Shown piece after piece: positions 53 to 27,726 of a stretch of DNA of 64,000 nucleotides. A model generated the notes under the pieces. That model saw nothing but the letters and a program-made list of their open reading frames with translations, was not told the DNA's origin and searched no databases. The position numbers and the translations under genes were made by a program. Location: the NCBI GenBank assembly GCA_900315455.1, contig OMZE01000006.1, positions 62,001-126,000 of the forward strand, given 5' to 3'. The stretch comes from an uncultured Prevotellaceae bacterium. GTDB lineage: Bacteria > Bacteroidota > Bacteroidia > Bacteroidales > Bacteroidaceae. How positions within the stretch are numbered: the first letter of the stretch is position 1; every line of letters begins with the position of its first letter.

Positions 53-1486
53 TTATACGATATATACTTCAGGCATCCTAATTTTGAACTCGGGGTCAAT
101 ATTGTGACATTGCTCTTTTACAATACCACGGCGATGAATAGCAGGATTCAGACAATATAGTTCAAACTCTTCTTTATTTACATCTGCAACATATCTCCAA
201 TGAGGGAAAAGAAGTTTCATATATCCAGTTGCTATGCGCTTTATAGCCTTTGAATCACGGACATCTGCTTTCTTTTCAAACTTACACAACTGATCAAATA
301 ACAGTCCATACGTGTTATTTGTACGCATAGTGTGTAATATTTCCGAGAAATATTCAACATTTATAGTCCAGCCTTTAAATATCATACTGCTGTTGATACG
401 AGGCAAAAGCCATCCTTCAATAAAACAATGAAAACGGTCTAGTAAAGCTGATTCACGGAAATTCTCAGGAAGAGAATCAAAATACATTGGTGAAATAGGG
501 CGATGTTGTTCTGTCAATGGTATATTCCCCATAAGCATCAATCCACATTCTGATGTAAATTCATTGTTATCAATAGTGGTTTTCCCACTTTCAAGATATG
601 ACTTTAAAGCAGCTTGGATTTCGGCTGGTTCTTGAAAAACTATGGTTTGTATCTCATCAAATACAGTAAAATCATGATTTTTGATGATACCATTCTGCTG
701 CTTTGCCTTATCATAGAATAGCTTTGCACGGGTCACTTTACCACCGCTGACTAGCCATCCATATTTTGACAAATTACCGAATACATATGATTTTCCTGTT
801 CCTTTGGGTGCTAACTCTATGACGTTTAGTCTCGGTTCTGCAAAAATAAGGAGCCGTGTTATAAACTCTAACTTCTGAGTTTCATTAGCAAAACCATCAG
901 GGTCGTATTCCATGGCTGATAGCAACAAGTCCATCCATTCTGTTGTGGTAAAGTGCTGGCGTGCTTCAGCGAGATATCCGATGTCAACAGAACTATATGG
1001 CTTGAATGGCTTGTAGTCCACCATTTGAACATGGAATTTCTTCCCGTCATTATCAGGAAGCAGACAGAGTTTCACGATACCCCATTTTTCACCATCTACA
1101 AGTTCGCCTTGGTGCTTATTGTATGTAAACTCAGGTATTATTCCCTCACGGAGTTTTATTCCGTAGTCAGGGATTGCAAATTGCTTTTGTCCCTTTACCA
1201 AGTCAATGTAAATTATGAAACGTGCAAGAAGAACAACTTCTTGACCAGATACTATTCTGTCTTTGACTGACCCAGAGTTTGCGGGGATAACCTGATCAAG
1301 AAATTTGGTCAACCCCAATGTATCTATTTCGCCAGTTTGGACATTCAAATAACGTTTTAGCAGGAAGTCCTTGACAAAAGCAGGAAGATTTCGACCTGCA
1401 AATATACTATTGGTTTTCTCAGGATCTTTGTAAATTGACATCTGAGAAAAATACATTCTTATTTTTTCACTTATTTCTGCTTTCAT
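53..1486 (-). CDS. brxL: BREX protein BrxL (short, ATPase part only)
   Basis: Last gene of the BREX operon, 11 bp after pglZ. Seen: an AAA+-like core with Walker A APKGTGKS at residues 226-233 and Walker B-like FTVFDEIQ at 273-280, preceded by about 220 residues of mixed N-terminal domain. The best match by reading is BrxL, the Lon-related ATPase of type 1 and type 4 BREX. Known of the family: type 1 BrxL is about 680 residues and carries a C-terminal Lon-protease-like domain after the ATPase. This protein has only 477 residues and ends about 200 after Walker B, so that domain appears to be absent. Inference: it works as a DNA-binding motor in phage exclusion without a protease-like part. There is no sign of a frameshift at the 3' end; the stop is followed by AT-rich DNA running off the window. 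Confidence 0.82.
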   Translation of the reverse strand: MKAEISEKIRMYFSQMSIYKDPEKTNSIFAGRNLPAFVKDFLLKRYLNVQTGEIDTLGLTKFLDQVIPANSGSVKDRIVSGQEVVLLARFIIYIDLVKGQKQFAIPDYGIKLREGIIPEFTYNKHQGELVDGEKWGIVKLCLLPDNDGKKFHVQMVDYKPFKPYSSVDIGYLAEARQHFTTTEWMDLLLSAMEYDPDGFANETQKLEFITRLLIFAEPRLNVIELAPKGTGKSYVFGNLSKYGWLVSGGKVTRAKLFYDKAKQQNGIIKNHDFTVFDEIQTIVFQEPAEIQAALKSYLESGKTTIDNNEFTSECGLMLMGNIPLTEQHRPISPMYFDSLPENFRESALLDRFHCFIEGWLLPRINSSMIFKGWTINVEYFSEILHTMRTNNTYGLLFDQLCKFEKKADVRDSKAIKRIATGYMKLLFPHWRYVADVNKEEFELYCLNPAIHRRGIVKEQCHNIDPEFKIRMPEVYIV

Positions 1487-1497
1487 TTTTCTATGAA

Positions 1498-6900: not shown

Positions 6901-7351
6901 CAATGTTTATACCTGCAGCATTTAATGCATTTTTAATTTCCTTTTGCAGCTGAAGCGATAAGTCTTCTTCGTGGGCAATACTCTGTTGGCCATACAAGTT
7001 TACAGGGAAAAGACGTTTTTGTAAACGTACATTTAAGATTGAAGAACGTAGCTTTTCGTACTTCTCCTTTTTGTATTCATCCTCAATATATTCTGAGATG
7101 TCATCTAATGGGTCACAAAACAAATGCTTCAAAACTGCTCCTGCATGTGATTTCCCCGTACCATACGTACCTGCAATCCATATAGACTTGTGGCTGTCTG
7201 CATCATTGTTGCGAACAGCCTTAATCATATTATTCAGAATACCATCAAACTGGTCATTGGCTATAAATGTTTTCCATTCTCCAAGACCCTCTTCTTGTAT
7301 GTTGTAAGCAGGTCGCATCGACCTAAGAGTTACTATATCGCTGTATTTCAT
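3908..7351 (-). CDS. brxC: BREX P-loop ATPase BrxC/PglY
   Basis: Large ATPase of 1147 residues. Walker A GTYGTGKS is at residues 61-68, Walker B-like LIIWDEFTE at about 243-251, then a conserved segment near 290 containing FLLISHPSA. A Gly/Ser/Thr-rich linker around residues 1070-1100 precedes a small helical C-terminal domain. Length and motif order match the BrxC/PglY family, the AAA+ ATPase of BREX complexes. It starts 3 bp after the stop of the upstream small gene and overlaps pglZ by 11 bp, so the operon is tightly packed. BrxC is thought to be a core scaffold and motor of the complex; the exact reaction is not established. Confidence 0.9.
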   Translation of the reverse strand: MKYSDIVTLRSMRPAYNIQEEGLGEWKTFIANDQFDGILNNMIKAVRNNDADSHKSIWIAGTYGTGKSHAGAVLKHLFCDPLDDISEYIEDEYKKEKYEKLRSSILNVRLQKRLFPVNLYGQQSIAHEEDLSLQLQKEIKNALNAAGINIVVQTDFDTLVQHIEEQPVIWQSLIDNNIILSSVAPDLKKLKQLLMAGNTEVLERVRNAQRVAGIDIRLQGNNIQQWIFEVQEKLREKGFDGMLIIWDEFTEIMTSSIAKRLIVQLQRISEAMMNPENDSYFLLISHPSAILTLNEDEREKTKGRYHYMIYNMEPVSAFKIMSKKFKVVDDTTYKLRKERFFSLHNDLLNIFSQSSANTEETIDNIKNLFPLHPSTANLATYYAREAGSSSRSVFEFLASDTVRDFLDSEDNYANERTITSDFLWDYVQEYFESDTTRFGAVTERYNSHHLAVEAAGENYLRVFKGILLLNALNNIANSDTVTPSTANIESLFVGTEVEQELSEILDFLNDKSIIQRQPNGNYSILFTALPGEEIQKIKEELVSSNFLYTDQVVKFGDAARSSFDKSFKQVNRPLCYQFFSKQGNEYTLLSRIENTQRDARGYEIFLAIMVAKTQSEMFDLKDIAERNSKEDRFRNTVFVMMEAYLGDKNYERFIEYQANAQCAQRHGLANQQKTYAKNASDMITEWTTRMRGSNVTFYLRGDTLTISGSKLSSTINMTIAPSIFEAGPESLDIIRTKSSVTYWKKASVKATVDAILSFNTKQDILASPSCGGQGRHVEFLLQDSVDDNLQWKSDVDPQHPLKKVCDYVDEWLSGRHTNKNQTFNLGEKLIGLTEPPYGLFQSYASMAMVAFAMRKYINQIFDTNGKQRSSQHIIDDVVELFKAWESGRTSQKLNFMFESKEAGKLCKYLIAMFSLKKLKGYSDISSLKDARWAILHEYAKLKGYPLWSLKYSTSEYNTEKMSQLIDDIIKVVSDPESMKNPQLLNSAIKGYEDQKIEWGNLLIEKNGGNFKEGFDNFLKDVEIVNLQDIEIPKAMEYLHGHLEGEVGLWKELEVREKLKDWRISQQQTTSGSPTNGGTTGVGYTGGSNASSGGFANEPKSTIDIASKRNELAGKVKMIPSGELKDIVNEIIEKEDGYILDVLLKYVQ

Positions 7352-7354
7352 AGG

Positions 7355-7807
7355 TTACTTGTTTTCTGTTTTAAGATAGTGATTTACTATAAGTTCACGA
7401 AATTCAATCCTAACAGATTGGTCTTGTAGCAGATCCCATAATCCATCGTCAAGGTGTGCATACTCAATGTTTTCTTTTAAAAACTTAGGAGAAGGCGTGT
7501 GCCATTTGTGATCTGGAATCTGACCTCCTTTCCATTTTATGTCGTAATAAATCTCTCGAATAGAATGAAAAAACGGTTTGAAATAGGGTGCAGCTTTTCT
7601 ATTCGGCTCATATTGAGCACATAGCTCTTCGTAAATAGCTTTAAGTTTATTCTCATAAGTTATTTTGTTCCCAAGCAAAACACCATCTTCTATACCTTTG
7701 ATAATCGCGAGAAAATATAGTGGTTTGGCATTTGATGGAGCACCAAATGCAATGCCTCTATGAATGGAGAGTAAACCATTCTTATAATATGAGATTTTAA
7801 GATTCAT
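7355..7807 (-). CDS. Small BREX-linked protein, possible sulfur-binding-domain-like
   Basis: About 150 residues between brxP and brxC. I chose the ATG at 7807, 5 bp after the brxP stop; the reading frame extends to an ATG at 7834 that would overlap brxP. Seen: an N-terminal KPLYFLAIIKGIEDG helix, a central PFF segment, then a WHTPSPKF stretch and a C-terminal HLDDGLWDLLQDQ helix ending in ELIVNHYL. This arrangement resembles the N-terminal domain of many HNH endonucleases and the sulfur-binding domain of type IV enzymes that read phosphorothioate DNA. No nuclease motif is present. Inference: a stand-alone DNA-reading subunit serving BrxP. The family assignment is by eye and weak; the gene itself is well supported by its tight fit in the operon. 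Confidence 0.6.
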   Translation of the reverse strand: MNLKISYYKNGLLSIHRGIAFGAPSNAKPLYFLAIIKGIEDGVLLGNKITYENKLKAIYEELCAQYEPNRKAAPYFKPFFHSIREIYYDIKWKGGQIPDHKWHTPSPKFLKENIEYAHLDDGLWDLLQDQSVRIEFRELIVNHYLKTENK

Positions 7808-7812
7808 ATTAT

Positions 7813-10314
7813 TTATATAAGCGCTTCTAAACAAGATGTGGAATTCAAATCTTCTCTTAGCGTGATGCTATCAAGCCCCATAGCTAATTCTGCAATCAAT
7901 ACACGGTTATTTGCTGAATTCAAAGCCTTCAAGGTGTTAATGAATACTTGCTTGCTAATTCCAAGAACCCGAAAAGGACCACTTTTACATTCTTCATTAT
8001 AGAAATCAGATACTCTTAGTGAGTGAACTCCTTTATTTTCTGCATATTTATATAGACTATATGCTAATCCTATTTTTGTCATCTCTTCATACCCACCACG
8101 TATATAATTCTTTCCATCTGTTTTTTTGCTCCAATTTAGCGTATCTCCAATTGGCGAATAATCAAAGGTTTGGATAAGTGCAGCAACTGCATTTGTGACT
8201 GTTTTCCCTTTTGATGAATAGCCTTGTTCGTTTATCATCCCTTCCAAGATCTTTCGGTCAAATTCTTGTCCAATCTTTATGTTATTAGCAAACCAATTGA
8301 CAATAAAAGAATGGTAAGACAAATTAGTAAGAATTAATTCCCAAGTTAAACTAGTATCGTCGATATAAATTTGTTGGAGCAATTCTCCAAAACGTGTTAG
8401 TTTGTTCTTGGCATCATTTATTTCGGCATCCTTGAGCCATGCCTTAAACCCATCCACTTGGGCGGTTCCAAGAGAATTGCTCTGCCAAAAATATTCGGGG
8501 TCTACTAGATACTCTTGTAGCCATTCTTCTCTAAAGCCAAAGGTCTTATAACCTTGGATTTTTGTTTCTTCGTTATTGTTCATATTTTTAATCATTCTAA
8601 TGCAATCTGCCGAAATACAACCCAAATCGTGTGAATTTAGACACTTTAGGCAATGAATACACTTTGTTCTGTCAATATATACATTCGGTAAAATGGATAA
8701 AGCACCTGATGGACAATCTACTTCACAAACCTCGCAATGGACACAATAAGCACTTTTATATACTACACGTCTTAACAAAAAACTTAATTGTGCAGAAGCA
8801 TTTTCAACAACGAAAGTGTACAGGTTCTTTTCTTTTTCGTATTTGACATAAAATTCAAACACATTGTCAGCATATTTTAAGGATCCTTTATCCATATTGG
8901 AATTACGTTCTACTGTATATTCACATAATGCTGGTAACCATTCATAGATTGGATGAAGTGGATTTTTTACTAATGCTGTAAAGGAATTATTAGCGTCTGA
9001 AAACGAAACAGCGGTCTTCACCAAATCAGTATTTCCTATAGCCTTAATCTTCCATCGTCTTTCCTTAATAAACTCATCTACTTTTCCAATTCTGCTATTT
9101 TTTGACCATAATACAAGTCTATCTGTAAATGGTTTAAGTTCAGAACTATAACACTTTGAAGCAATCATGTCATCCCATGCCGTGGAAAATGGGCAAATTA
9201 AACACCCGACACGAGCTTTCCCATATCGGTATGCCTGATTAATGGGAAGACCATATTTGAAAAGATAAATGAATATTTCAACAGAATTCCAATATATAAT
9301 TGGGTGAGCGTTTACTATAGTAGTATGTTTCCCTTTCCCAATTCTTAAATACGCACCTCGCTTAACACTCTCCTCTGCGCGGACACCATCAAAAGTAAGA
9401 ACCTTGGCTTGTTTATTACTGCCATCAATCTTTAATCCTCTATATAGTGGGGCTGTTTTCATTATAGAACAGCACCATCTATGTGTGTCGCTTGGAGTTC
9501 CGATTTTATCCCAATAACTCAGTACGTTGTCATGATTATGTGCTACAGAGAATCTCAAATCAGGATACAGCTCTTTATAATGCTTTTGAACTTCCTCATA
9601 GAGACTCAATGAAGGGGGCAGCTCATAGCCTGTATCGCTATAGATTACTTCGAATTCGGTGCTAGGGATAGCACGAGTGCATAAATCAAGAACAACCTGG
9701 CTATCCTTTCCGCCTGAGAAGGAGGCCAAGAATTTATCTATCTTAGTAGTTTGATAGATTTTGCGACCTTGCTTCTCGGCTTCTTCAAATGGTACAATGT
9801 CAAAAGAGTCACAATCCTCTTTGATGATAGCCATTTTCGTCTTCGACTTTTTTTCCACCTTGGCGGCCAAAGCTTCATAGTCGAGTTGGTTAGCAGCAAC
9901 ATTTTGGACACTCTTTCGTGCTCCTGCATATTGGATAAAGGTCTCATGAATAAATTCAATGGCTTCACTTTCAAGCAAGAACATATATTCCTTACATCGT
10001 TCCAACATCTTTTTGACGTTGACAGGTTTCAGCCTTAAGGCCTCCATTCCTGGCTGAAATACAACCGTCGCTTCATCGTAGATATTGGCCCCCTTAGCTT
10101 CAAAAACTAGTTCTCCACGATACCAATATTGTTTGTTGATAGCCCATAGCAATGGGTCCTTACAGTGAGGGTATTTCCATCCTAGTTCATTCAACTTCAA
10201 CAAGTCGAGTTCTTCCCAGAACACAGGCCGAGGAGAGTAGCCTAGCGTACCCTCAACAATGCGTGAGTGCAAAAGCACTCCGCCAGTCTCTTTGTCCCAG
10301 GTTATTTTATACAT
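7813..10314 (-). CDS. brxP: BREX type 4 PAPS-reductase-like protein BrxP
   Basis: First gene of the BREX operon, 833 residues. Domains in order: a unique N-terminal 190 residues; a PP-loop/PAPS-reductase domain with SGGKDS at 200-205, a CC pair at 281-282 and GCLICPF at 370-376; a 2x[4Fe-4S] ferredoxin segment with CxxCxxCxxxC at 524-534 and a second set from C552 to C566; then a helical C-terminal domain from about residue 590 that resembles DUF4007. PP-loop plus iron-sulfur architecture is shared with DndC/SspD, which activate sulfur for DNA phosphorothioation. BrxP marks BREX type 4, which lacks the PglX methylase. Inference: this protein chemically marks host DNA, possibly with sulfur. 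A -7 element lies 29 bp upstream. Confidence 0.85.
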   Translation of the reverse strand: MYKITWDKETGGVLLHSRIVEGTLGYSPRPVFWEELDLLKLNELGWKYPHCKDPLLWAINKQYWYRGELVFEAKGANIYDEATVVFQPGMEALRLKPVNVKKMLERCKEYMFLLESEAIEFIHETFIQYAGARKSVQNVAANQLDYEALAAKVEKKSKTKMAIIKEDCDSFDIVPFEEAEKQGRKIYQTTKIDKFLASFSGGKDSQVVLDLCTRAIPSTEFEVIYSDTGYELPPSLSLYEEVQKHYKELYPDLRFSVAHNHDNVLSYWDKIGTPSDTHRWCCSIMKTAPLYRGLKIDGSNKQAKVLTFDGVRAEESVKRGAYLRIGKGKHTTIVNAHPIIYWNSVEIFIYLFKYGLPINQAYRYGKARVGCLICPFSTAWDDMIASKCYSSELKPFTDRLVLWSKNSRIGKVDEFIKERRWKIKAIGNTDLVKTAVSFSDANNSFTALVKNPLHPIYEWLPALCEYTVERNSNMDKGSLKYADNVFEFYVKYEKEKNLYTFVVENASAQLSFLLRRVVYKSAYCVHCEVCEVDCPSGALSILPNVYIDRTKCIHCLKCLNSHDLGCISADCIRMIKNMNNNEETKIQGYKTFGFREEWLQEYLVDPEYFWQSNSLGTAQVDGFKAWLKDAEINDAKNKLTRFGELLQQIYIDDTSLTWELILTNLSYHSFIVNWFANNIKIGQEFDRKILEGMINEQGYSSKGKTVTNAVAALIQTFDYSPIGDTLNWSKKTDGKNYIRGGYEEMTKIGLAYSLYKYAENKGVHSLRVSDFYNEECKSGPFRVLGISKQVFINTLKALNSANNRVLIAELAMGLDSITLREDLNSTSCLEALI

Positions 10315-10350: not shown

Positions 10351-10381
10351 ATCACAAGCTGTCCCAAAACGTGGTACATGC

Positions 10382-14506: not shown

Positions 14507-14514
14507 TTTTGACT

Positions 14515-16463: not shown

Positions 16464-16513
16464 CATAAGGATGTCTTTGACATACATTCTTCCTTTTTTA
16501 AGAAGATGTTATG

Positions 16514-17815
16514 CTACAGCATATTGAATTTACTCATAGAAACAGCCTTGATATCATCGGCGATGTCGATGTATGGCTTCATCGCCTTGTAGTCGCTGTG
16601 ACCGGTCCACTTCATCACCACCTGGGCAGGGATGCCGAGTGACAGGGCGTTGCAGATGAAGGTGCGGCGACCGACGTGCGAGGCCAGCAACTCGTGCTTG
16701 GGATGCACCTCTTCCTTTCTCTCGTTGCCGATGTAATAGGTTTGCTTAATAGGCTCATCGATGCCAGCAAGTTTGCCCAACTCTTTCAGGTAGGTGTTCA
16801 TCTTTTGGTTGCTGATGACGGGTAGGGCCTTGTCGTCCTCAAAATGTATGTCTTCATATTTCTCTAATATGGCCCGGCTATGATCATTCAACTCAATGAC
16901 CAGATAGTCATGGGTCTTGATAGTGGTAATCTCTATTTGTCCATCTTTGATGTCGCTTTTGCGAAGATTATACACGTCGCTGTACCTAAGACCAGTGAAA
17001 CAACAGAATAAGAAAACGTCCCTCACGCGCTCAAGATAGTTCTTCGTCTCGGGTATTTCCAAATCTCGGATTCTTTGCAACTCATCTCTTGTGAGGAAGA
17101 TGATTTTCTGCTCGCTTGACTTCAATTTGGGTCTGAATTTCTCAAACGTATTGTCGTTATAGATGCCATTGTTGTAACACCAGCGGAGGAACCAGCGCAG
17201 TAATTTCATGTTCTTCTCCACCGTGATGTTCCTGTGGTTCGTCTTCCGCATATACTCTGTGAATCCGAGGATGCCTTTTTCGGTGAACGTTTCAAACGAC
17301 ACACGTTTGTTGAATGCCAGAAGATGGTTTTTCAATACACTGAAACGGGCGTATGTGGCATCAGTCCATTCGTTGGCAGTGCCACATGTCCTGATGAATT
17401 CGTCGTATGCATTCCAAAAGATCTTGCTTGGCGAGGGACCTTTGGCCTTTTCTTCCTTTTCGGGCTCAATCTTCCTTTTGAGTTGTTTCTGGAAGACTTC
17501 TTTCAATTCTTCTACTGAAGGCATGGTTTCTGTATATTCAAAATCCTTGAAAGCGGCCTGAATAGCGTTCTCCTGCTTGGACAATTCCATATTGATGTCA
17601 GATGCTGTTTGCAGGGACTTGTTCATACAATTGCGCTTGACACGTTGCGCCTTGTCATCCCACTTGTCAAGGTCGATTTTGTAGCCAGTGGAAAGCTTGA
17701 TTCGGGTGGAACCGAAAGAAACGCGCATGAAAATGGGCACGTTTTCCATGATGAGGATACCGTTCTTTTTCCTTCGTTCGGGTGAAAAAACTATGCTTCG
17801 TTTGATTGTTGCCAT
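16514..17815 (-). CDS. Tyrosine recombinase / integrase of the island
   Basis: Bacteroidetes-type phage integrase with arm-binding N-terminus, SAM-like core-binding domain and catalytic domain. Catalytic residues seen: Arg in TGLRYSD (about residue 275), His-x-x-Arg in SHVGRRTF (about 381), His in WTGHSD, and the nucleophile Tyr in AMKPYID near 415. I chose the ATG at 17815 (MATIKRS) because homologues start there; the frame extends to 17842. The gene ends near the sce7726 operon and its start faces the putative attachment site 155 bp away, the usual arrangement of an integrase at an island end. Confidence 0.92.
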   Translation of the reverse strand: MATIKRSIVFSPERRKKNGILIMENVPIFMRVSFGSTRIKLSTGYKIDLDKWDDKAQRVKRNCMNKSLQTASDINMELSKQENAIQAAFKDFEYTETMPSVEELKEVFQKQLKRKIEPEKEEKAKGPSPSKIFWNAYDEFIRTCGTANEWTDATYARFSVLKNHLLAFNKRVSFETFTEKGILGFTEYMRKTNHRNITVEKNMKLLRWFLRWCYNNGIYNDNTFEKFRPKLKSSEQKIIFLTRDELQRIRDLEIPETKNYLERVRDVFLFCCFTGLRYSDVYNLRKSDIKDGQIEITTIKTHDYLVIELNDHSRAILEKYEDIHFEDDKALPVISNQKMNTYLKELGKLAGIDEPIKQTYYIGNERKEEVHPKHELLASHVGRRTFICNALSLGIPAQVVMKWTGHSDYKAMKPYIDIADDIKAVSMSKFNML

Positions 17816-17970
17816 AATGGTGTATTTAGAATTTACACCCAAAATTACACCCGAAAAATGGAATAATCAAATGTTTTTGGATAAATCTCATTGGTGTTAT
17901 GAATATTTAACTAATTGATAATGAGTATATAATAAACTCTATTAAACTCAGTTGATATATAGGTTAAATA

Positions 17971-18034: not shown

Positions 18035-19363
18035 TTATACCTGCATCCCCAAGAAATAGGGATCCTTGTCATCCTTCGCCATTTGCTGCTCTTTCTCCAC
18101 ATAGTCATGCCATAAGGCGTCCAACTGTTTGGCCATGGCATCACCGAGGATTACTCCAGAATGGCCTTCCTCCCAGTTGAACTCGGGTATGGCCTTGCCC
18201 AGGTCATCTGTCGTCAGCAACAGCAACGCCTTTTCGGGGTGAATCATATGACTCAGTCCCATCCTCACGTAATACACCCTGCGGCCCTTTCCACTCCAGT
18301 CTTCATCGGGGTAGGGCATGCCGATGATGGTGCCCCGCATCACCACGCCATGCTTCCCTTTTCCGGTGCGAATCATGTAGAACTTGTCACCCCAATGAAC
18401 TTTCTGGTAGTCCCAGATGCTCCATTCGTAGTAGAAAAAGTCGTCTGCGAAATCATCCATCGCCTCCTCAAACTCGCACAACTTGTAGTTGCTGATGTCT
18501 GTGTTCCACCGCATGATGAAAGTCTTGCGGAAATTCTCCCTAACGATGCCCTCCGCCTTGTCGAACAACTCGTTCCAACGCGCTTCATCCATCTTGTACA
18601 GAAGGGCTTGTGCGGCATCCATCTTTCTGAACTCACCCTCTCCCTCCATCAACTGGCAGAAATCCTCGAATCTCACCATCTTGCAAGTATTCTCCTTCAT
18701 CATGCCCACATATTGACATACACCAATGAAGACGTCGTCCGAATTGTCCACCACCTTGATGCTGCTGAGTTCCTCCTCGTCTGTGACGTGGCGTTTTTCT
18801 TCCGTCACATCCTTTGTTTCCAGTCTGGTCCATTGCAAGGCGATGAAATCCCTGAAGGCTGCTGATACACCATCCTTCTTCCTGTCATCGACATGGTATG
18901 TTGTTGGTAGGAGATAGAAGTCGCGGTTCACACCAGCCAGCATCATCCTTTCGCCTTTGCTGAGGATGTCTTCCATGTTGCTGCAACGCAGGTTCCATTG
19001 TTCCTCAGCATCGCAATCCGTCAGTATTGCCGATTTCTCCTCCTCGTCTGTGATTCTTGCCGTGCGATGCACCTTTGTCACAGCATGCAGGAAAGCATAG
19101 CACAGGCGCACGTCCCACTCGGAAGCGAGCCAAGGCAATTCCACGATGATGGTCTCGCCAACATAAAACTTGATGTTGACACCTTGGGTGGAAACATCTT
19201 CCGCTGTCATCGTGAATGACTCCACCTCGTCGTCTGTAGGGGTGACCTGCCGTTCTATGAAATGCAACTTGTCGGCAAGGTCTTTAGCAAACCGCTTTGT
19301 TTGTTCAACGACCTTGTGCTCATTGAACTTACGGATTCCCTTTATCGTATATTTGTAGGCCAT
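18035..19363 (-). CDS. Unknown protein with C-terminal EVE/PUA-like domain
   Basis: 442 residues, last gene of the WYL-helicase operon. The N-terminal 280 residues are not recognised. Residues about 283-435 form a compact domain: RWNTDIS, WSIWDYQKVHWGDKFYM, then GVVMRGTI, PYPDEDWSGKGR and FNWEEGHSG. The same domain ends the helicase encoded two genes upstream. The WGDKFYM..G.V..G pattern resembles EVE/PUA-like domains, which bind modified bases or RNA; that is by eye. The start lies 2 bp after the stop of a small ORF, so translation is likely coupled. Inference: DNA- or RNA-reading partner of the helicase-nuclease. Confidence 0.6.
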   Translation of the reverse strand: MAYKYTIKGIRKFNEHKVVEQTKRFAKDLADKLHFIERQVTPTDDEVESFTMTAEDVSTQGVNIKFYVGETIIVELPWLASEWDVRLCYAFLHAVTKVHRTARITDEEEKSAILTDCDAEEQWNLRCSNMEDILSKGERMMLAGVNRDFYLLPTTYHVDDRKKDGVSAAFRDFIALQWTRLETKDVTEEKRHVTDEEELSSIKVVDNSDDVFIGVCQYVGMMKENTCKMVRFEDFCQLMEGEGEFRKMDAAQALLYKMDEARWNELFDKAEGIVRENFRKTFIMRWNTDISNYKLCEFEEAMDDFADDFFYYEWSIWDYQKVHWGDKFYMIRTGKGKHGVVMRGTIIGMPYPDEDWSGKGRRVYYVRMGLSHMIHPEKALLLLTTDDLGKAIPEFNWEEGHSGVILGDAMAKQLDALWHDYVEKEQQMAKDDKDPYFLGMQV

Positions 19364-19365
19364 GT

Positions 19366-19587
19366 TTACATATTATCACAATCCCATTCTGCCAATTCGT
19401 CATCTGTTTCCTTGGGATAGCCATAATTGGCTTTCAGTTCCTCCTCGGAGAAAGACTGCTTGAATTTATCGCCCAGCAGCAAGACAATCATATCGTCAAT
19501 CTTCTCATTGTTGCGTTTCAATGGCTCGATACACGACCCTCTGACGGCCAGGACACACAGGTATACACCGACTGTGCCCTCCATCAA
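19366..19587 (-). CDS. Small hypothetical protein
   Basis: Up to 73 residues in the gap between the helicase gene and the EVE-like gene; its TAA lies 2 bp before the next ATG, which supports it being translated. No signal peptide or known motif; the C-terminal half is acidic (KETDDELAEWDCDNM). An internal start at IDDM... would leave about 40 residues. Function not recognised. Confidence 0.45.
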   Translation of the reverse strand: MMEGTVGVYLCVLAVRGSCIEPLKRNNEKIDDMIVLLLGDKFKQSFSEEELKANYGYPKETDDELAEWDCDNM

Positions 19588-19684
19588 ACCATCAAAATGC
19601 GAGATGATTTTCTCTGTGTCTCTGTATCTCTGTGTTGTATATATATGGAAGCGTCCGACGATTCGCTATAGGCAAATCGTGGAT

Positions 19685-22600
19685 TCACCCCATTTCATCC
19701 CACAATTCATCCAGTTTCTCCACATCCTCCTGGGATAGTAGTTGGCCGGAGTGTCCGCGCCGCCAGTCGATGTTGGGAAGTGCCTTTTCCAGGGCGTCGA
19801 TGTCGACGGGTGGTTTTTGGTCGGGTGATACGCAGTCGTAGCATCCCATTTCCATATAGTAACGCTGCTTGCCACGTCCGGCCCAGTCGTCACCTGGGTA
19901 TGGGTCGCTGGTGAACACGCCGCGGAATACGAGTCCTGCATGCTCATCGCCTGTTCTTAACATGTAGAATCTATCGCCTTGATGCGCCTCCTCCCACTCA
20001 TACACGCTCCAGTTGAACCCGAACCCGTTTGGACATTGCGTGGTGGCATCCCGGTAATCCTCGAGGCGGAAACTGCTGATGGTCGGGTTCCAACGCAGCA
20101 GGTAAGTCTTGGGCATATGTCCGGAAGCCGCTTGAGGCGATGCCTCTGGGGCTATTTCCACATCGAAATGTAGGGTCCACACACAGGCATCTCCATTGGC
20201 ATCTGGCACAAGTTCCCCATTGTCCTTGATGACATAGCGCTGCTTCACTGTCGCCTTATGCCCAATGATGCGAAGCACAAGTTCACGTCCTGCGTTGACC
20301 AAAACGGCATACTCCAGACCCTTCTTCATCATGTAGGGGAACATTCCGTTGTTCCAGAAATAACAGGAGTAGTAATAGGATGGCATCTCGTCGCAGACAA
20401 GGAGGAGATGTCCTTTGAAGTTCTCCAATAGGCTGTCGTAGGAGTCCTGATCGACATCCACGCTGACGACATGCTTCTCACCCTTATAGAACGCATTGAA
20501 CTCCCTCGTAGTCACGCTCAGCGCGAAACTGTTCGTCTCATTCGTAATGGGGTCGTTCTCTTCTTCATCGCTTTCATCACTGTCATCTAAGCCGTCGGGC
20601 AAAACATTCTCTATGCCCATACCTTCAGCCATAGCCCTGCCTATCTCGCACAGAATACCGCTCACGGGATAGTAGATGAAGCGCTTGATGACCTTCTCTC
20701 CTGCTTCCTCCAATGCGTCGGTGTATGCGTCAAGTTGTCCGGCATACCAACCGGCGTAGTGCTCGGACGTCGGGTCTGTCACCTCCTCTATCTTTGGGAA
20801 TGTCTTGAAGTCAATCAGCACATCACCCTTTGGAGTCTGATATACATAGTCGATACTGCCGACGACGATGCTTCCGTTCTCCTGCAAACTGCGAAATGGA
20901 CGCTCATGGTAAATCGCTATTGGTTCTCCGAATTCTTGATGGAGGAAAGTTTGCAGGTTGTTCCATGCACAGATGATTTCATCCGCATTCGGCAACACGT
21001 CATCCATGCCATGCGAACGGATTAGTTGTTCCACCTCTGGTTTATCCAAATGCTCGATTGCTGCATACACGTTGTGAATACAGTTGCCCACCTCAGAGTA
21101 ATTGCGGCCATGCATTTTGCCGGAATTGATTTTAATGAATTGCTCACTTCGGTAAACGACATTCACATGGTCTGCTTTGCTTTTCAGTCCACTCGGGGCA
21201 ACTGTTCTCGGAGCAGCGTCTGAAGGTGTGTCTGAATGATAGTCAAGTTTCCGATATTGCTTTGTTTTGACAACCGTTTCCGTCTCCTCTTCCTCTGGAT
21301 GCTCGGCTTTCACCACCTCAAACTGCACACCGATGCCCAGCACGTCACCGCTGCCGATATTGCCGGCGGAAATGAGGCCGGACCGTTTGAGCCAGTCCAG
21401 TTCCTTCTTGGCGAGCCATGGCACGAGCACCAACACCTCTGCTGCACGTGTCATGCCGACATACAGCAGCCGTGCGCTTTCCTCCAGACAATGCTTTCGC
21501 AGTTTTTCGTAATGCTCCGATGCGAACAGCAACTGGGCTATGGGATCAGGAACATTTTTCAAGTTGCCGAAAATCCATGGCAGCAAGCGGATGCTCATCT
21601 GAGGATGGAGATTGTCAGCAGAGGGAACACAGGGATGGAAATGGTGGATGCCATACAGTTCACGCCTCAGAATATCCATAGGTTCCAACGTCTCGTCCAT
21701 GAGAAGGAACACATATTTCCACTCCAGTCCCTTGGCCCCATGATACGTCAGCAACTGCACACCGTTACCTGAAATGGGCAGTTTGACATCGTTCTCGCTG
21801 AGGAAGGCCACGAATCCGGAAGGAGTTGCAGGCTGTGACAGTTCGCTGCTGCGGTCCTCGTATTGTTTGGCTGCTGCGATAAGCGCCTTGACATCGGTCA
21901 TGGATTCCTCTATCGGCATGGGCCACCTCTCCATGACATTCTTCACGTCAAGTTCCACGGCAAGAGTTTCCATCAGTGCGCCGATTCCCTGATACATCAC
22001 ACTTGGGCGCAGAGCGTTCACCCTGCTGATCATATCCGTATGGCCAAGCCAGGGCTTCCGCTCTTCCTTGGGCGTGCTGTTATATTCCAGTTTGGAATCA
22101 ATGATGGCACCAACTCCCATGTTGTCCTGGGTGAGGTAGGCAATTTCTGCCTTAGCCAAGTCATCCTGGGGATTCACTGTGAGCGTTGTGAGAGCCAACA
22201 TCAGTTGGCAGGCCTTGCTCTCCTTGTCCAACGAAGTCTCACGGTCGCAGGGGATGCCAAGATTTGACAGTTCTACCTGCACATCATCAAGGTCAAAGCC
22301 CGCCCTGCCAAGAACAGCAATGTCCGAAAAAGCAACATTTTCCGTTTCAATGACGCTCTTGATATACTGCGCCACATCCTCCACACTCAGTTTGGGTGAC
22401 CTGGAACTTCTCTTTTTGGTGATATTCAGATAGCGCAAGGGGTTCTTTGCTCGGTCTGCCAGAGGGGTCTTGAATTTCTCAGGATGGAGTTTCATGGCAG
22501 ACTCCAGAGGCACTTGCTTTTCTGTGTCATCACCGAATACCGGGCGGAAAATCTCCATAAAAGCCTTGTTGCAGGCATCCACCAGAGCGGGCACGCTTCT

Positions 22601-23842
22601 CCAACTCTCTCCCAATGTCTTCGAATGGCATCCCGCTTCACCTTCACTTTTAGCAATGAGATCCGCCACTGCCTTGGTAAGTGCCGTATCGCTGGCACGG
22701 AACCCGTAGATGGCTTGTTTGGTGTCACCCACCCAATAACTCTTCTCGACCACATCGGCAAGAGTCATGAATATCTTCACCTGTATGGGAGAACAGTCCT
22801 GGAACTCATCCACGAACAAGTGGGTGTAGGTGCGGCCTATTTCCGCTGCCACTTCCTTATCTTGAAGGAGTTTGTGCATGTAATGCTCAATGTCGCAGAA
22901 GTCAACGATTCGTTTGTTGAGTTTGTACTGCGTATATTGCTCGTTCCATTCCTTTGCCAAACGGAAGATGGTCTGGATGTATTCCTCCTGCAAGTCATAC
23001 ACCTCCTGGCTGCGCCACAGGTCGGCAGCCTTCTGCTTGGCTTCTTCGAGGATGGGAATGGGTACGGCATTCTTTGGAAGGGCAGGTGCGCCGCCTAAGA
23101 TTCTCGCAAACTCCGCATACCACTCGATGTCTTCCATGTAACGGCTGTGCTTCTTAAGGGCATCAATATTTTCAAGGGTCGTGTTTTTCTTGCCAGACTC
23201 CTTGCATCCTTCCACTTCTGTATGCAGCGCTTCCAGAATGGCAACTCGCTCTCTTGTCTCAAGATGAATGTGTGTGCCGTTGCAGAGCATTCTCAGCACG
23301 CCGAGTGACTCCTCGATACTGTCAGAATAGTCCGTGATGTCAAAACTGATGCTCTTTTCCACGATGTCCTTCAGGTGTCTTTTCCAGAAGTTGTCATCGG
23401 GATTGTAGTCCCCGTCTGTGATGTTGAAGGCCTTTCGGAACCTGGTGAAGAAATGCAGGTCGTCATCTGTAGGGATGTTGGCTATGCTCTGGTTGATGTA
23501 CGTTGCCTTGGCACTGTCGTCCATCACGCCCTGCTTGGGCGAGAGTCCGATGGTGTACCAGTATTTCTTTATCAGGGAAGAAGCCACGCTGTCGATGGTG
23601 CCCATCAAGGCATGGTCCAGCCGTGAAGCCTCGTCATACTTGCCTATCTTGTACAACTCTGCCTTTGCCTTCTCCTTAAACTCGTTGGCGGCCTTTACTG
23701 TGAAGGTGGTCAGGATGACCTGTTCTGGCTCCACATGTTCAGGGTCATTCTTGTCCTTGGCGACCAGTTCTGCCAACTTTGTGGTCAACGTATAGGTCTT
23801 GCCACTTCCGGCTCCTGCGCTGATATATGTTACGTTCTTCAT
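19685..23842 (-). CDS. UvrD/AddA-like helicase-nuclease with C-terminal EVE-like domain
   Basis: 1385 residues. Superfamily 1 helicase with Walker A AGAGSGKT at 9-16, later motifs LLTYHGAKGLEW near 695-705 and LLYVGMTRAAE near 790-800. A RecB-family PD-(D/E)XK nuclease follows: GSIDYVY near 993-999 and VLIDFKTF near 1006-1013. After an unrecognised region (about 1100-1240) comes an extra domain (about 1243-1385) with RWNPTIS, GDRFYMLRTG, GLVFRGVF, YPGDDWAGRG and RRGHSG, closely matching the C-terminus of the 18035-19363 protein. Ordinary AddA ends after the nuclease. It starts 6 bp after the nuclease gene upstream. Inference: an AddAB-derived, operon-specific machine that senses modified or foreign DNA. 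Confidence 0.82.
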   Translation of the reverse strand: MKNVTYISAGAGSGKTYTLTTKLAELVAKDKNDPEHVEPEQVILTTFTVKAANEFKEKAKAELYKIGKYDEASRLDHALMGTIDSVASSLIKKYWYTIGLSPKQGVMDDSAKATYINQSIANIPTDDDLHFFTRFRKAFNITDGDYNPDDNFWKRHLKDIVEKSISFDITDYSDSIEESLGVLRMLCNGTHIHLETRERVAILEALHTEVEGCKESGKKNTTLENIDALKKHSRYMEDIEWYAEFARILGGAPALPKNAVPIPILEEAKQKAADLWRSQEVYDLQEEYIQTIFRLAKEWNEQYTQYKLNKRIVDFCDIEHYMHKLLQDKEVAAEIGRTYTHLFVDEFQDCSPIQVKIFMTLADVVEKSYWVGDTKQAIYGFRASDTALTKAVADLIAKSEGEAGCHSKTLGESWRSVPALVDACNKAFMEIFRPVFGDDTEKQVPLESAMKLHPEKFKTPLADRAKNPLRYLNITKKRSSRSPKLSVEDVAQYIKSVIETENVAFSDIAVLGRAGFDLDDVQVELSNLGIPCDRETSLDKESKACQLMLALTTLTVNPQDDLAKAEIAYLTQDNMGVGAIIDSKLEYNSTPKEERKPWLGHTDMISRVNALRPSVMYQGIGALMETLAVELDVKNVMERWPMPIEESMTDVKALIAAAKQYEDRSSELSQPATPSGFVAFLSENDVKLPISGNGVQLLTYHGAKGLEWKYVFLLMDETLEPMDILRRELYGIHHFHPCVPSADNLHPQMSIRLLPWIFGNLKNVPDPIAQLLFASEHYEKLRKHCLEESARLLYVGMTRAAEVLVLVPWLAKKELDWLKRSGLISAGNIGSGDVLGIGVQFEVVKAEHPEEEETETVVKTKQYRKLDYHSDTPSDAAPRTVAPSGLKSKADHVNVVYRSEQFIKINSGKMHGRNYSEVGNCIHNVYAAIEHLDKPEVEQLIRSHGMDDVLPNADEIICAWNNLQTFLHQEFGEPIAIYHERPFRSLQENGSIVVGSIDYVYQTPKGDVLIDFKTFPKIEEVTDPTSEHYAGWYAGQLDAYTDALEEAGEKVIKRFIYYPVSGILCEIGRAMAEGMGIENVLPDGLDDSDESDEEENDPITNETNSFALSVTTREFNAFYKGEKHVVSVDVDQDSYDSLLENFKGHLLLVCDEMPSYYYSCYFWNNGMFPYMMKKGLEYAVLVNAGRELVLRIIGHKATVKQRYVIKDNGELVPDANGDACVWTLHFDVEIAPEASPQAASGHMPKTYLLRWNPTISSFRLEDYRDATTQCPNGFGFNWSVYEWEEAHQGDRFYMLRTGDEHAGLVFRGVFTSDPYPGDDWAGRGKQRYYMEMGCYDCVSPDQKPPVDIDALEKALPNIDWRRGHSGQLLSQEDVEKLDELWDEMG

Positions 23843-23848
23843 GTTGGC

Positions 23849-26626
23849 TTAATCTTTTAGGTGTGAATAACTGCTGAAACCATAAATCTCCTTGATCTCA
23901 TCATTGCCATATTGAGGTTTTAACGGGAAAAGGTTATGTGATTCCGTATCGTTGAAATAGTCAAGCGCAGTCAACGGCGCTCCCTCACCCATCTCAATTT
24001 TTCCCGACATGATTTCCTCACGGCGGTATCGATATGAGGCGACAATCTTGCTGATGATGTCGTCCTCGCACCCTTCATTCACGTTGACCTGGTAGGCCCA
24101 GTAACTATTGAAATGCGCTGTGCTGTATAGGCGGCCGCGTGGCATCAGGAAGTATGCCGTCGGCAACACCTTGTCATCAGTCAACTCACTCAACAGTTCA
24201 GCGTAGATGGCCAACTGCGAGGAGCGGTTCTTCTGCAACAGTCCCTGATAATAACTCTTTGCACTTGTCCATTTGAAGTCGAAGATGACGTGCTGGCCAT
24301 TTTCCCGAGTCAGCACCATGTCGGCGAAGCCGTGCATGGCCGGGGTCTCATCGTCAGGAACGCCCAACGTGTTGCCGTCAAGTTGCATCTCACAGGCTAC
24401 CACTTGCAGGTTGTCCTTCTCTATAATATCGATAAGGTGGTCTATGCATTCTCGCAGTTGTTCGAACAGTTGTCTGCGCTCGATAGCATTTTCCTGAAGC
24501 AGCAGGATGGCTCCCTTTGTTTCTATCACCTTGTCGAACACGCTTTTGTAGTTGGCTTCCACCCTCTGTTTAATGGCTGGGGCAAGGCCACTTTTCATGT
24601 CTCCTGGTATATAGAAAAGGTGTTGAATGACAGCGTGTGCCACATTGCCTTTCGTCATGGCGATGTTGCTTAGGTCGCTCTGTCCATTGTCGCTGATGTA
24701 TGCGATGTTCTCCAAAGTATAGTCAATGGGGTTCTGCATCAATTTGTCGATAGAGGTGGGACTTTCGTGCTTTTCCCATTTTATCAAGTCGGTCCTGTTG
24801 ATTTCCGTGTACAATCCATTGGAACCGCTGATGGCGTTATTGGTCAGGGCCGGAACGGGAACATAGTTATCCTCATTGATTCGTGGGGTGTCGGTCAGTT
24901 TCTTATGGTTCCTCACCTGCTGCTCGATGCGCACCATCATTGGGTGCTTGTTCACAATGGTGCCACCGACATTCTCTACTGTAATCAGCGTCAGTTGCTT
25001 CTGGCAGAAAAGCAGCGGAAGGAGCAATGTCTGTTGCTGCACCCTGCGCACATCATCTGCATCCCACAATCTGAGATGGTCTTTTAAGACACTTCGCTCA
25101 GTTGGCGTGAGGAAATCCGTGGCCGGCAACATCGGTTCAAAGTCATACAGACCACCCCACAGAACCTTGTCTGCCTTGGCTGCCACCTGACCTGGGGAAG
25201 AAACGGTGAAGCGCGACGCTGCCTGTGCCCTGTATTGCACAAACTCCGAAGGCTCATACAAGCAAGCCATGTGCTTTTCTATCTCACTGTATGCCACCTG
25301 GGCTGTCGGCTGTAGGTCATCCGTCAGGTTCTTCAATGTCTCGCAAAGTTCCGAGAGACGGGTGAGTTGAGGGATGCGAATGTCTTCAGGGTTCTCCTGC
25401 GCAATAATGGCCGAGCGTTGTCTGCTCCATCCCCCCAGTTCTGTCAGGAAGGTATGCAGTCTCTGAGCAGTCAAGGATGTGTTATCCTCAAAGTCTGGCA
25501 GGAAGACAGAGGCTTTGAACTGCCGTGCATCCCGTTCCTTGCTGTCTATCGGCTGTCCCTTCTCTGCTTCCATTTTGCCCTCTTTCCATTCCTTTACCAA
25601 CTGATAGCAGTCGCCCTTGTCCTCTTCCTTGGTCTCAGGCAGCCAGCCACCAGTCCGTGCCAGTCGTTCGGCAAGTTGGTATCTGAAACCGGCGGGTAGT
25701 GGATGTATGGGCGCATAAAGCCATTGCAGCAAGGCACCGATATTCAGTGGGCGGGCCAGCATGGCCACACCAGTGAAGAACAACTGGATAATCTGGGGCG
25801 CACTGTTCGCTACCGACGAGCCAGTCACCGATTTGCCCATCATGTGCAGGAAGTTGTCTGTAAGTTTGGCATCTGGCTTGATGCTAACGTCAAAGGTGTC
25901 GTCATCCATCATGGCCAGATATTCCTCTGCCTCCATGTCATCCTTGAAACTCCATATTCTCACCGAGTCATCATTGGGGTCGAGTTCCGTCATGTCCGCT
26001 TTCTCCGATGTCAGCAACGACTTTAACTTGGCGAGGTTGTCGCTTCCCTCTATCGCTGGTGTGGTGATACGCTCTACCTTTGCTCCGTCGGCCTGTGCAA
26101 GAAGGAATATTTCTTTAATGGCGGGATGCAGCAGGTTCACGTCAAATGGCATCAAGAAGGTCACGTCCTTCATGATTCCTTTCTTCTGTTTTAGTCGTTC
26201 AATGACTGCCCTCTGACGGATGCTCATATCGGGATAGTCTTTCTCTGCAAAGATTTGCTCCACGCCCTGTAGGACTTTTAGCCTACGGCTTGATGCCGGA
26301 CTGTCCTTGGTCCAACCACAAACGGCAAGTGCGTCACGCCACTTCAGCATTTCCCTGCTGGTGGCCAGGGGTGACACCGTATAACTCCCATACAACTGAT
26401 TGTCCGTGTCATCTGCATGGCTTTTCATGTAGTCACGCACACACTTGTAGTAGTCAACCAGTCTGTCTGTCTCTGACATCGTGACTGAATGCAGGCCAAG
26501 GCGCAGTTCCATGAAATCCAGCAAATTCCTGGTGTCTGTCACCTGTACATCCATCATCAGCGGCTCCTCTTTCAGGCCCAGATAGGCATTGCCGCCTTTA
26601 TAGTCAAAACTGAAGAATACTCTCAT
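23849..26626 (-). CDS. AddB-like PD-(D/E)XK nuclease
   Basis: 925 residues. The first 600 residues look like an inactivated helicase scaffold as in AddB/RexB: no Walker A was found. The C-terminal region holds a RecB-type nuclease: HGFADMVLTRENG (D near 768) and VIFDFKWTSAKSYY (D-x-K near 780), then QLAIYAELL, the usual Q-x3-Y helix. No cysteines suited to an AddB-style Fe-S cluster were identified around the nuclease. It is the partner of the downstream helicase-nuclease (6-bp gap). A -7 element and a large inverted repeat lie upstream. Confidence 0.75.
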   Translation of the reverse strand: MRVFFSFDYKGGNAYLGLKEEPLMMDVQVTDTRNLLDFMELRLGLHSVTMSETDRLVDYYKCVRDYMKSHADDTDNQLYGSYTVSPLATSREMLKWRDALAVCGWTKDSPASSRRLKVLQGVEQIFAEKDYPDMSIRQRAVIERLKQKKGIMKDVTFLMPFDVNLLHPAIKEIFLLAQADGAKVERITTPAIEGSDNLAKLKSLLTSEKADMTELDPNDDSVRIWSFKDDMEAEEYLAMMDDDTFDVSIKPDAKLTDNFLHMMGKSVTGSSVANSAPQIIQLFFTGVAMLARPLNIGALLQWLYAPIHPLPAGFRYQLAERLARTGGWLPETKEEDKGDCYQLVKEWKEGKMEAEKGQPIDSKERDARQFKASVFLPDFEDNTSLTAQRLHTFLTELGGWSRQRSAIIAQENPEDIRIPQLTRLSELCETLKNLTDDLQPTAQVAYSEIEKHMACLYEPSEFVQYRAQAASRFTVSSPGQVAAKADKVLWGGLYDFEPMLPATDFLTPTERSVLKDHLRLWDADDVRRVQQQTLLLPLLFCQKQLTLITVENVGGTIVNKHPMMVRIEQQVRNHKKLTDTPRINEDNYVPVPALTNNAISGSNGLYTEINRTDLIKWEKHESPTSIDKLMQNPIDYTLENIAYISDNGQSDLSNIAMTKGNVAHAVIQHLFYIPGDMKSGLAPAIKQRVEANYKSVFDKVIETKGAILLLQENAIERRQLFEQLRECIDHLIDIIEKDNLQVVACEMQLDGNTLGVPDDETPAMHGFADMVLTRENGQHVIFDFKWTSAKSYYQGLLQKNRSSQLAIYAELLSELTDDKVLPTAYFLMPRGRLYSTAHFNSYWAYQVNVNEGCEDDIISKIVASYRYRREEIMSGKIEMGEGAPLTALDYFNDTESHNLFPLKPQYGNDEIKEIYGFSSYSHLKD

Positions 26627-26655
26627 TATCGATAATATTAAATTTCAAACGATTG

Positions 26656-26663
26656 CAAAGGTA
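26656..26663 (-). promoter_or_regulatory. -7 element before the helicase-nuclease operon
   Basis: Minus-strand TACCTTTG fits TAnnTTTG and lies 30 bp before the AddB-like start. The -33 region is not clean. Confidence 0.4.
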
Positions 26664-26693
26664 AATTGTTGTTGTCTCATTTCGTGGGACAAG

Positions 26694-26739
26694 TAAGGAA
26701 AAAGTTTGAAAAAACCATGTTTTCTCAAACTTTTCCTTA
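26694..26739. promoter_or_regulatory. Long inverted repeat between WYL gene and nuclease gene
   Basis: Arms of 16 and 15 bases (TAAGGAAAAAGTTTGA and TCAAACTTTTCCTTA) with one unpaired base, separated by 15 nt. It lies 31-76 bp upstream of the -7 element of the nuclease operon and 50 bp after the WYL stop. It could be the WYL operator or a terminator of the WYL gene; the lack of a GC-rich stem favours the operator reading. Confidence 0.5.
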
Positions 26740-26790
26740 TTATCCTCCACAAAAAAATACAATCTTCATGCGGCCAATACCGCAAACAAT

Positions 26791-27726
26791 TCATTCCGCC
26801 TCATACATGGCCGCTGCTTCCTGGTGCATGTCATGAATCTCATCAGCCAGCCATTGAGGTTGAAGCACCTTGATCAGATTGCCACGACTCAACAAATGCC
26901 CGCTGAAATCGATTGTCGGACGCAGGTAAAACTCAAAATCGGCGAAGTTTTCTCCCCGGCCTATCTCATACTGACTCTTGTGAATGGGCAAATCCCTCAG
27001 ATAAAACCGCTCATAACCGTATGCCCTTATGACAATACGCTCCGGCCTGGTATCATCACCCACAAGCACACCGTAGCATTCGTTGAAATACTCTTGTGCA
27101 TCAAAGTCAGGGTCAATCCTGAACTTGACATCGGTCAGTTCCATGTTGAGGATTCGGTCAAAAGAGAACACCCCGAAGTAGTCTGCCTCGGGCTTCTCCT
27201 CTGTAGCGTCACGGTGGAAATGGCCCAGGATATACCATCGTTGCTTGAAGAGTTTCAGGCAATATGGCTCAAAGTTCAGGTGATTGGGGCTGTCTGTGCC
27301 GTATTTCCTGTAATCCACGGCTATTCTCACGCTTTTCTTCATGGCGTCGATGACCATCCCCAGATACCCATCTTCTGCGGGTACCGACTGGAGCAGGATT
27401 CTGTTTTGCAGCGACAGGCTCTCGCTGATGACGTTGTTGACCGAAAGAGTCGACAGTATCCAGTTCTGCACACTGTCATCCCGTAGCACTTCGTCGTTGC
27501 CGATGTAATACTTGTATCCATTCTGGCGGTCGCACTCGATATAGATGCCAAACATGTCTTGAATGGCATCCTTGTGGCGGTTGAAGGTAGAACGGGCCAG
27601 TTCCACCCCTTCGCTCATATCGCTTCGAAGCCACTTCTCCTGGATTTCCGCAAACGTAATCATACCTGCCTTGTGAATGGTGTCCACAAGCCAAATGTAT
27701 TCCTTGAATTTAGTCGCTGTTTTCAT
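26791..27726 (-). CDS. WYL-domain transcriptional regulator
   Basis: 311 residues: N-terminal winged helix (residues 8-75, SEGVELARSTFNRHKDAI as recognition region), then a WYL domain with KQRWYILGHFHR (W164-Y165-I166-L167) and a C-terminal WCX-like extension. WYL proteins sense nucleic-acid ligands and commonly control defence operons. It is the first gene of the minus-strand set that continues into the AddB-like, AddA-like and EVE-like genes, and is separated from them by 164 bp containing the inverted repeat. Inference: it represses the operon until DNA damage or infection. Confidence 0.85.
   Translation of the reverse strand: MKTATKFKEYIWLVDTIHKAGMITFAEIQEKWLRSDMSEGVELARSTFNRHKDAIQDMFGIYIECDRQNGYKYYIGNDEVLRDDSVQNWILSTLSVNNVISESLSLQNRILLQSVPAEDGYLGMVIDAMKKSVRIAVDYRKYGTDSPNHLNFEPYCLKLFKQRWYILGHFHRDATEEKPEADYFGVFSFDRILNMELTDVKFRIDPDFDAQEYFNECYGVLVGDDTRPERIVIRAYGYERFYLRDLPIHKSQYEIGRGENFADFEFYLRPTIDFSGHLLSRGNLIKVLQPQWLADEIHDMHQEAAAMYEAE

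Follow-up and report, generated by a model that had tools for sequence, protein, structure and literature searches.

Does a second AddAB-type helicase-nuclease, whose terminal domain recurs on the protein encoded beside it, serve repair or defence? The question is raised by an uncultured Prevotellaceae bacterium (assembly GCA_900315455.1), in a stretch of 64,000 nucleotides of contig OMZE01000006.1 (positions 62,001 to 126,000), hereafter the window. A sequence-only reading had described a WYL-controlled helicase-nuclease operon of four open reading frames (ORFs), and all four were recovered on the minus strand where that reading had placed them (Table 1): the WYL-domain protein P0004, the AddB-like P0003 (AddB*), the helicase-nuclease P0002 (AddA*) and P0001. 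We hold, at roughly even chances, that AddB*-AddA* serves defence rather than housekeeping repair, as a horizontally spread accessory helicase-nuclease of the AddAB type; judged from sequence, this second nuclease has the look of an antiviral enzyme whose sensor tails can be exchanged. Loci, genomes and contigs are denoted by L, G and C numbers.

A housekeeping identity for the operon was ruled out by a separate pair of adjacent addB and addA genes on contig C57 (991 and 1098 amino acids (aa)), the second, ordinary pair whose existence the sequence-only reading had left for checking. AddA-like frames of about 1050-1100 aa occur in many of 60 genomes (the own genome and 59 relatives), and a full-length match to P0002 was found in the own genome alone. 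Relatives of P0003 occurred in 30 of the 398 genomes of the genus (and in 15 of the 175 better assemblies), so the locus is not conserved at this place in all relatives; of the two outcomes named beforehand as fatal, unrelated C-terminal domains and a sole, universally conserved addAB, neither occurred. In 28 of 30 loci AddA* is the gene immediately after AddB* (with broken frames in L093 and L094), the other two stopping at a contig end, and a WYL gene lies directly upstream of AddB* in 8 of the 11 visible loci of a close group of 13 (window, L073-L076, L078, L079 and L100; not L072, L080 or L081; L071 and L077 are cut at the WYL place and were left out). AddBA-like pairs were also found on Lysinibacillus, Bosea and Methylocystis plasmids, where the annotated neighbours are, among others, AbiE genes in Bosea and a SIR2 protein in Methylocystis; the AddB* relatives there are annotated as PD-(D/E)XK nucleases, and the three plasmid AddA examined have no EVE match. 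The pair is accessory and patchily distributed.

The catalytic core appears intact. P0002 is matched by Pfam UvrD-helicase (5e-42), UvrD_C (6.4e-18) and, below the cut-off, PDDEXK_1 (0.0011), which bears out its description as a helicase-nuclease, and across 27 AddA* the helicase motifs are complete and the RecB-type nuclease residues kept in the rows having them. The AddB-like nuclease likewise held up: P0003 has no Pfam match over the cut-off, yet it carries a conserved RecB-type nuclease motif set in which D769, D783, K785, Q804 and Y808 are invariant in all 28 rows having them (29 sequences, gapped rows left out). The features of AddAB, namely UvrD motifs with a RecB-type nuclease in AddA and a RecB-type nuclease in AddB, are thus present in both subunits. 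A Walker A motif is absent from both the window AddB* and the housekeeping AddB. A C-x2-C-x5-C motif, present in three plasmid relatives and at 976/979/985 of the housekeeping AddB, is missing from the window AddB*; in AddB these cysteines form an iron-sulfur cluster. The AddB* profile matches the plasmid relatives (E 6e-38 or better) and gave no match to the housekeeping AddB, for which a single sequence was compared. By these sequence features AddB*-AddA* is an AddAB-like pair, and we do not assign it to AddAB itself.

The duplication of a domain at the C-termini of P0002 and P0001 was confirmed (37% identity over 139 residues, E 2e-32; local score 297 versus a top score of 59 in 1000 shuffles), and the landmarks RWN..IS, GDrFYM.RTG, G.V.RG, PYP..DW.G.G and GHSG were found in both. 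The extra domain had been put at about 140 residues; that repeat is present, but the common unit is bigger, because a third copy of the EVE-like domain occurs at L013, where contig C68 of this assembly encodes a 306-aa protein, and that protein matches P0002 from residue ~1105 (~1105-1383, 44% over 284 aa), so that the helicase tail comprises two domains, a pre-domain and the EVE-like domain. The pre-domain region is modelled with low confidence. For the C-terminal domain of AddA* the predicted structure has an EVE fold, of the EVE/PUA type (VIA-align over the Foldseek top 1000), with YTH domains among the next fold matches. Neither window domain matches EVE (PF01878) in a Pfam scan; HNH-fused relatives do match it (L108 at the Pfam cut-off), and a profile chain runs from the window domain to HNH-type relatives (1e-27) and from these to EVE (88.5%). 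Residue Y1315 of P0002 stands opposite the conserved Y of ordinary EVE proteins, within a profile alignment that is itself not significant. Model and sequence comparison together support an EVE-like identity for the repeated domain, and the predicted EVE fold combined with conserved nuclease residues supplies the reader and nuclease of a putative type IV restriction enzyme. In L127, pre-domain and EVE are joined to another PDDEXK nuclease.

Tails vary between closely related enzymes. Twenty of the 27 AddA* have none, three end in pre-domain plus EVE (window, L071 and L074), three carry a P0001-like N-terminal domain plus EVE as a tail (L073, L080 and L081), and one is cut by the contig end within the pre-domain (L072). 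Well-supported branches in the tree of these 27 proteins force at least four changes of the tailless state, deep joins being unsure at some long branches. The window and L077 enzymes are 82% identical and differ in having a tail, the tails of the sisters L073 and L074 differ, and L078 has a separate 138-aa EVE ORF about 700 base pairs (bp) downstream where its sister L081 carries a tail instead. Gain, loss or replacement of the EVE tail between close relatives is, as far as sequences speak, the pattern of an exchangeable specificity module.

The association with P0001 is looser than had been proposed. The four genes do not form a fixed unit, since the EVE tail is missing from those 20 AddA* and a P0001-type gene lies beside AddAB* in only 3 of the 12 loci seen (window, L076 and L080; not L015 or L034-L041; L034, L035, L037 and L038 duplicate the contigs of L196, L194, L195 and L193 and were counted once). 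A single operon is firm only for AddB* and AddA*, which are 6 bp apart; P0001 lies 321 bp past AddA* and is not clearly co-transcribed, and the WYL gene is 164 bp ahead of AddB*. At genome level, of the 8 genomes that encode a P0001-type protein 5 had close AddAB*, versus 13 of 398 overall (Fisher p 8e-7), and EVE outside AddA* set against close AddAB* gave 8 of 13 (p 7e-5), or 4 of 9 (p 0.02) without four assemblies of more than 5% contamination. The host is described as Prevotella-like because the named relatives of P0001 belong to rumen assemblies of Prevotella, Prevotellaceae and Bacteroidaceae.

Defence genes adjoin several of these loci. Beside the window operon lies an island of low guanine-plus-cytosine (G+C) content (~30-41%; window 53-17842) with BrxL, PglZ, BrxC, BrxP, a ThsA-like SIR2, a Cll-like protein and an integrase; L080 has BrxC and PglX beside AddBA, L081 has AbiLi/AbiLii-like and AbiH-like genes, L092 type I restriction genes and L076 a PDC-S57-like gene. 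The survey of neighbours that the sequence-only reading had called for came out divided, in that the window, L080, L081 and L092 showed defence neighbours but the neighbourhoods of several loci, L073, L074, L077 and L079 among them, contained no gene recognisable as such by eye. EVE proteins outside AddAB* keep similar company: stand-alone pre-domain plus EVE proteins lie by an EcoRI-type methylase with GmrSD-HNH (L145 and L150), by a type ISP methylase with GmrSD (L149) and next to McrBC (L151), and L154 has a related EVE protein next to genes for WYL and a UvrD helicase, giving defence-type neighbours in 5 of the 14 same-genus loci L143-L156, of which the scan covered those five. The third EVE protein of the genome (L013, C68:70000-85000) stands amid PglX, an AlbA-like ORF (by eye), a PEGA protein, ZorA, ZorB and ZorC. 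As a separate observation, BREX (bacteriophage exclusion) and Zorya parts thus occur together in one gene run.

WYL control was the remaining claim. The WYL domain of P0004 scores 35.0 bits against a cut-off of 21.8, WCX falls just under its own (22.7 versus 23.9 bits), and residues 1-110 have no clear Pfam match. All 8 gaps between WYL gene and AddB* contain the common palindrome TTGTCCCACGAWWTGAGACAA with at most two deviations, a candidate operator of the palindromic kind used by WYL defence regulators, so that control by P0004 is backed at the level of a predicted site. A single site of the window fits the strict pattern, versus 0.03 expected; in G293 (L080), where the WYL gene is ~20 kb off, the palindrome still lies ~50 bp before the AddB* match. 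By eye, similar sites were seen upstream of P0001 homologues in 5 of 10 stretches (L035, L036, L076, L080 and L015) and none in L034, L037, L038 or L040; L034 and L040 have a similar site before WYL. An 18-pair stem (26698-26736) was set aside as a conserved element because it is not conserved in other WYL-AddB* gaps, and promoter- and terminator-like sites in the scan that gave it were no more numerous than in shuffles.

The site recurs beyond the operon. A degenerate pattern with at most one mismatch found 10 sites in the own genome and 0 control hits: ~45 bp upstream of AddB* and likewise of BrxP, 152 bp ahead of a tandem GmrSD pair, upstream of a 352-aa ORF with a Helicase_II-like gene after it, and at loci with a weak DdmD match one gene on (L259), an HD-domain gene (L258) and, by eye, a similar gene (L257); no match was found in L253 (PADLOC) or L256 (Pfam and PADLOC). 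Twelve sites from three other genomes and G201 (L260-L271) include one upstream of an HNH restriction-type gene (L264) and one upstream of a DUF6794 gene (L262), most being unlabelled. Across 299 genomes, of which 81 have sites, the 10 with a WYL protein at least 75% identical held 49 sites (control 3), the 37 at 47-69% identity 46 (control 6) and the remaining 252 genomes 68 (control 36), with identity classes that were chosen after the list was viewed. A site lies within 250 bp of at least 25 of the 52 listed WYL genes of at least 47% identity, 13 of these 25 being 20-24 bp past the WYL match end. Candidate sites before unlinked genes suggest a wider regulon, although a paralogous WYL protein could instead use them.

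EVE domains are of a type that recognises chemically marked DNA bases. We propose a mechanism in which the EVE domain would, like that of VcaM4I, bind a modified base of incoming foreign DNA. Binding would recruit the complex, or license it, for unwinding and degrading the marked molecule, so that the modification would take the role that Chi has in ordinary AddAB, here as a signal for destruction. P0001 may be a separate reader or adaptor of the AddB*-AddA* complex. P0004 bound to the palindrome would hold addBA in check until infection or DNA damage, and would probably do likewise for the BREX and GmrSD genes that carry this site. Single-stranded DNA released by the nuclease might, more speculatively, act on the WYL domain as feedback; such binding is reported, in excerpts of PMC11804915 and PMC12340889, for the WYL domains of the regulators PafBC and DriD. 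In its fullest form this becomes a modification-gated processive restriction machine with an exchangeable EVE reader in place of Chi recognition, P0001 as a detachable reader and P0004 as master regulator of a defence regulon that spans the genome (AddAB*, BREX, the tandem GmrSD pair and others) under one palindrome, which we put forward tentatively, as a possibility well short of even chances.

Several observations weigh against defence by an EVE-guided, P0004-controlled enzyme. The core can work without its tail, because 20 of 27 AddA* have none. Direct profile comparison of the window domain with ordinary EVE proteins was not significant (3.8%), and an EVE model search of the own genome at 1e-5 gave no match. 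The AddAB* neighbour loci scanned were picked by eye, and no background rate stands beside their counts. The window P0001 has no site in its 321-bp upstream gap, only about 4 of the 10 own-genome sites precede clear defence or restriction genes, 48 of the 252 genomes without a WYL homologue of at least 47% identity still have sites, and G167, with a WYL protein 75% identical, has none. Without the four contaminated assemblies, co-occurrence of P0001 and AddAB* falls to 2 of 5 (p 0.004), and P0001 as an invariable partner was rejected as a rule. The own assembly (93 contigs, 4.76 Mb) has 8% contamination, so genes on its other contigs may come from another organism.

An alternative interpretation reverses the sign of the reader: the EVE tail would recognise a host modification, such as adenine methylated by BREX or by an accompanying methylase, and restrain the nuclease on self, unmarked DNA being degraded. 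EVE-bearing loci do adjoin BREX (window, L080 and L013), an EcoRI-type methylase (L145 and L150) and a type ISP methylase (L149), and the next fold matches include YTH domains, readers of methyladenine, but we consider it unlikely because McrBC and GmrSD neighbours and HNH fusions point to modification-dependent cutting and many EVE-tailed AddA* loci (for example, L073 and L074) have no methylase in the stretch seen.

Ranking after it, and doubtful, is a back-up repair or anti-subversion role, in which a second AddAB would go on degrading or repairing DNA while a phage inhibits the housekeeping enzyme, EVE only modulating end binding. Complete helicase and nuclease motifs and the many tailless AddA* (20 of 27) are consistent with such a role, as is a proposal, in an excerpt of the preprint PMC12407980, that Gabija acts on RecBCD-antagonising phages. 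However, rapid tail exchange would be unusual for a repair enzyme, the genome already has addAB, and the window AddB* has lost C-x2-C-x5-C. We regard it as very improbable that the pair works for an integrated element or plasmid, in its maintenance, competition or transfer, and not for the host, since AddBA-like pairs on plasmids, one distant phage-record match and an integrase just downstream of P0001 are countered by an operon G+C of ~50%, as on the chromosome side and unlike the low-G+C, integrase-side island, and by the lack of relatives in three viral-contig scans.

The defence reading also has to be placed among known systems. EVE-HNH endonucleases (VcaM4I, TspA15I and CmeDI; excerpts of PMC7897488) similarly join an EVE-fold domain to a nuclease, and relatives of the window domain are HNH-fused; here, by contrast, a two-subunit AddAB-type helicase-nuclease carries a divergent, exchangeable EVE domain at its C-terminus. 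AddAB/RecBCD shares two adjacent genes, a UvrD-type motor with nuclease and a nuclease in the second subunit, but the window pair is an accessory second copy with an EVE tail and an AddB* without C-x2-C-x5-C. In type IV McrBC and GmrSD, beside both of which EVE-bearing relatives lie, a motor or nuclease is likewise guided by a base-reading domain, but motor family and nuclease are others. Gabija also defends with a nuclease and a UvrD-like helicase, and GajB models match P0002 because the UvrD core is common; GajA models matched neither P0001, P0003, P0004 nor the ten ORFs of 53-16463, nor P0002 among the best 25 of its 50 matches. In BrxR/CapW (excerpts of PMC9122588, PMC9122589 and PMC9122601) a WYL gene likewise directly precedes a defence-like operon with an adjoining palindrome, but here the candidate site is also ahead of unlinked genes. 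Excerpts of PMC7641849 describe EVE-PD(D/E)XK, EVE-HNH and other fusions, with UvrD-Cas4-like genes neighbouring some EVE systems; its main text mentions neither AddA nor RecB, and PMC12839542 mentions none of AddA, AddAB and RecB. An EVE-tailed AddAB was found by title nowhere in the open-licence literature among the matches listed, and novelty stands only that far.

Should the defence reading be true, a helicase-nuclease of the recombination type would have become a DNA shredder guided by modification, and nature would already offer specificity variants in the tail swaps seen between enzymes 80% alike. The palindrome poses the question of whether, in rumen and gut Prevotella, several defence systems that are not linked are coordinated by a single WYL protein.

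Table 1. Coordinates of the operon, its domains and neighbouring features in the window.
Feature	Position	Strand	Remark
P0004, WYL-domain regulator, 311 aa	26791..27726	-	Pfam WYL 1.4e-8, over cut-off
P0003 (AddB*), AddB-like partner, 925 aa	23849..26626	-	RecB-type nuclease at residues ~660-808
P0002 (AddA*), UvrD-type helicase, RecB-type nuclease and two-domain tail, 1385 aa	19685..23842	-	
P0001, N-terminal domain and EVE-like domain, 442 aa	18035..19363	-	
Pre-EVE domain of AddA*, residues ~1105-1243	20114..20530	-	Conserved with EVE in stand-alone proteins, e.g. L013 6647-7567
EVE-like domain of AddA*, residues ~1244-1385	19688..20113	-	Predicted structure and profile chain
EVE-like domain of P0001, residues ~279-425	18089..18529	-	52/139 identical to AddA* tail
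21-bp palindrome TTGTCCCACGAAATGAGACAA, candidate WYL operator	26672..26692	-	~45 bp before AddB*
Second copy of candidate operator	10359..10379	-	~45 bp before BrxP; degenerate pattern, one mismatch, missed by strict pattern
BREX genes BrxL, PglZ, BrxC, 150-aa ORF without match, BrxP	53..10314	-	PADLOC models
Tyrosine recombinase between BREX island and operon	16514..17842	-	Pfam Phage_integrase 2.9e-12

A look for attachment-site repeats of the BREX island gave two 16-bp matches. A virus-borne system was set aside, as three viral-contig scans gave no relatives and the one phage-record match is distant; that faecal record (MT835507.1, 23931-26348; H11) encodes an AddB*-like protein with 27% identity over 60% of P0003. 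A domain match with 27% identity also lies inside an AAA ATPase on the Sinorhizobium plasmid pK101b (L189, 6299-9534), where a restriction endonuclease adjoins in a McrBC-like layout. Short or interrupted EVE copies (L195 9012-9257 and L017) suggest decay and turnover of the module. DUF6794 genes recur, near a P0001 homologue (L037 8949-9248) and behind a palindrome site (L262 3972-4817). A distant AddAB* group without EVE tail or WYL (L082, L085, L086, L088, L090, L091 and L093-L098) has a recurrent cluster of sirtuin, macrodomain, ADP-ribosylglycohydrolase, primase and sigma-factor look-alikes, identified by eye.

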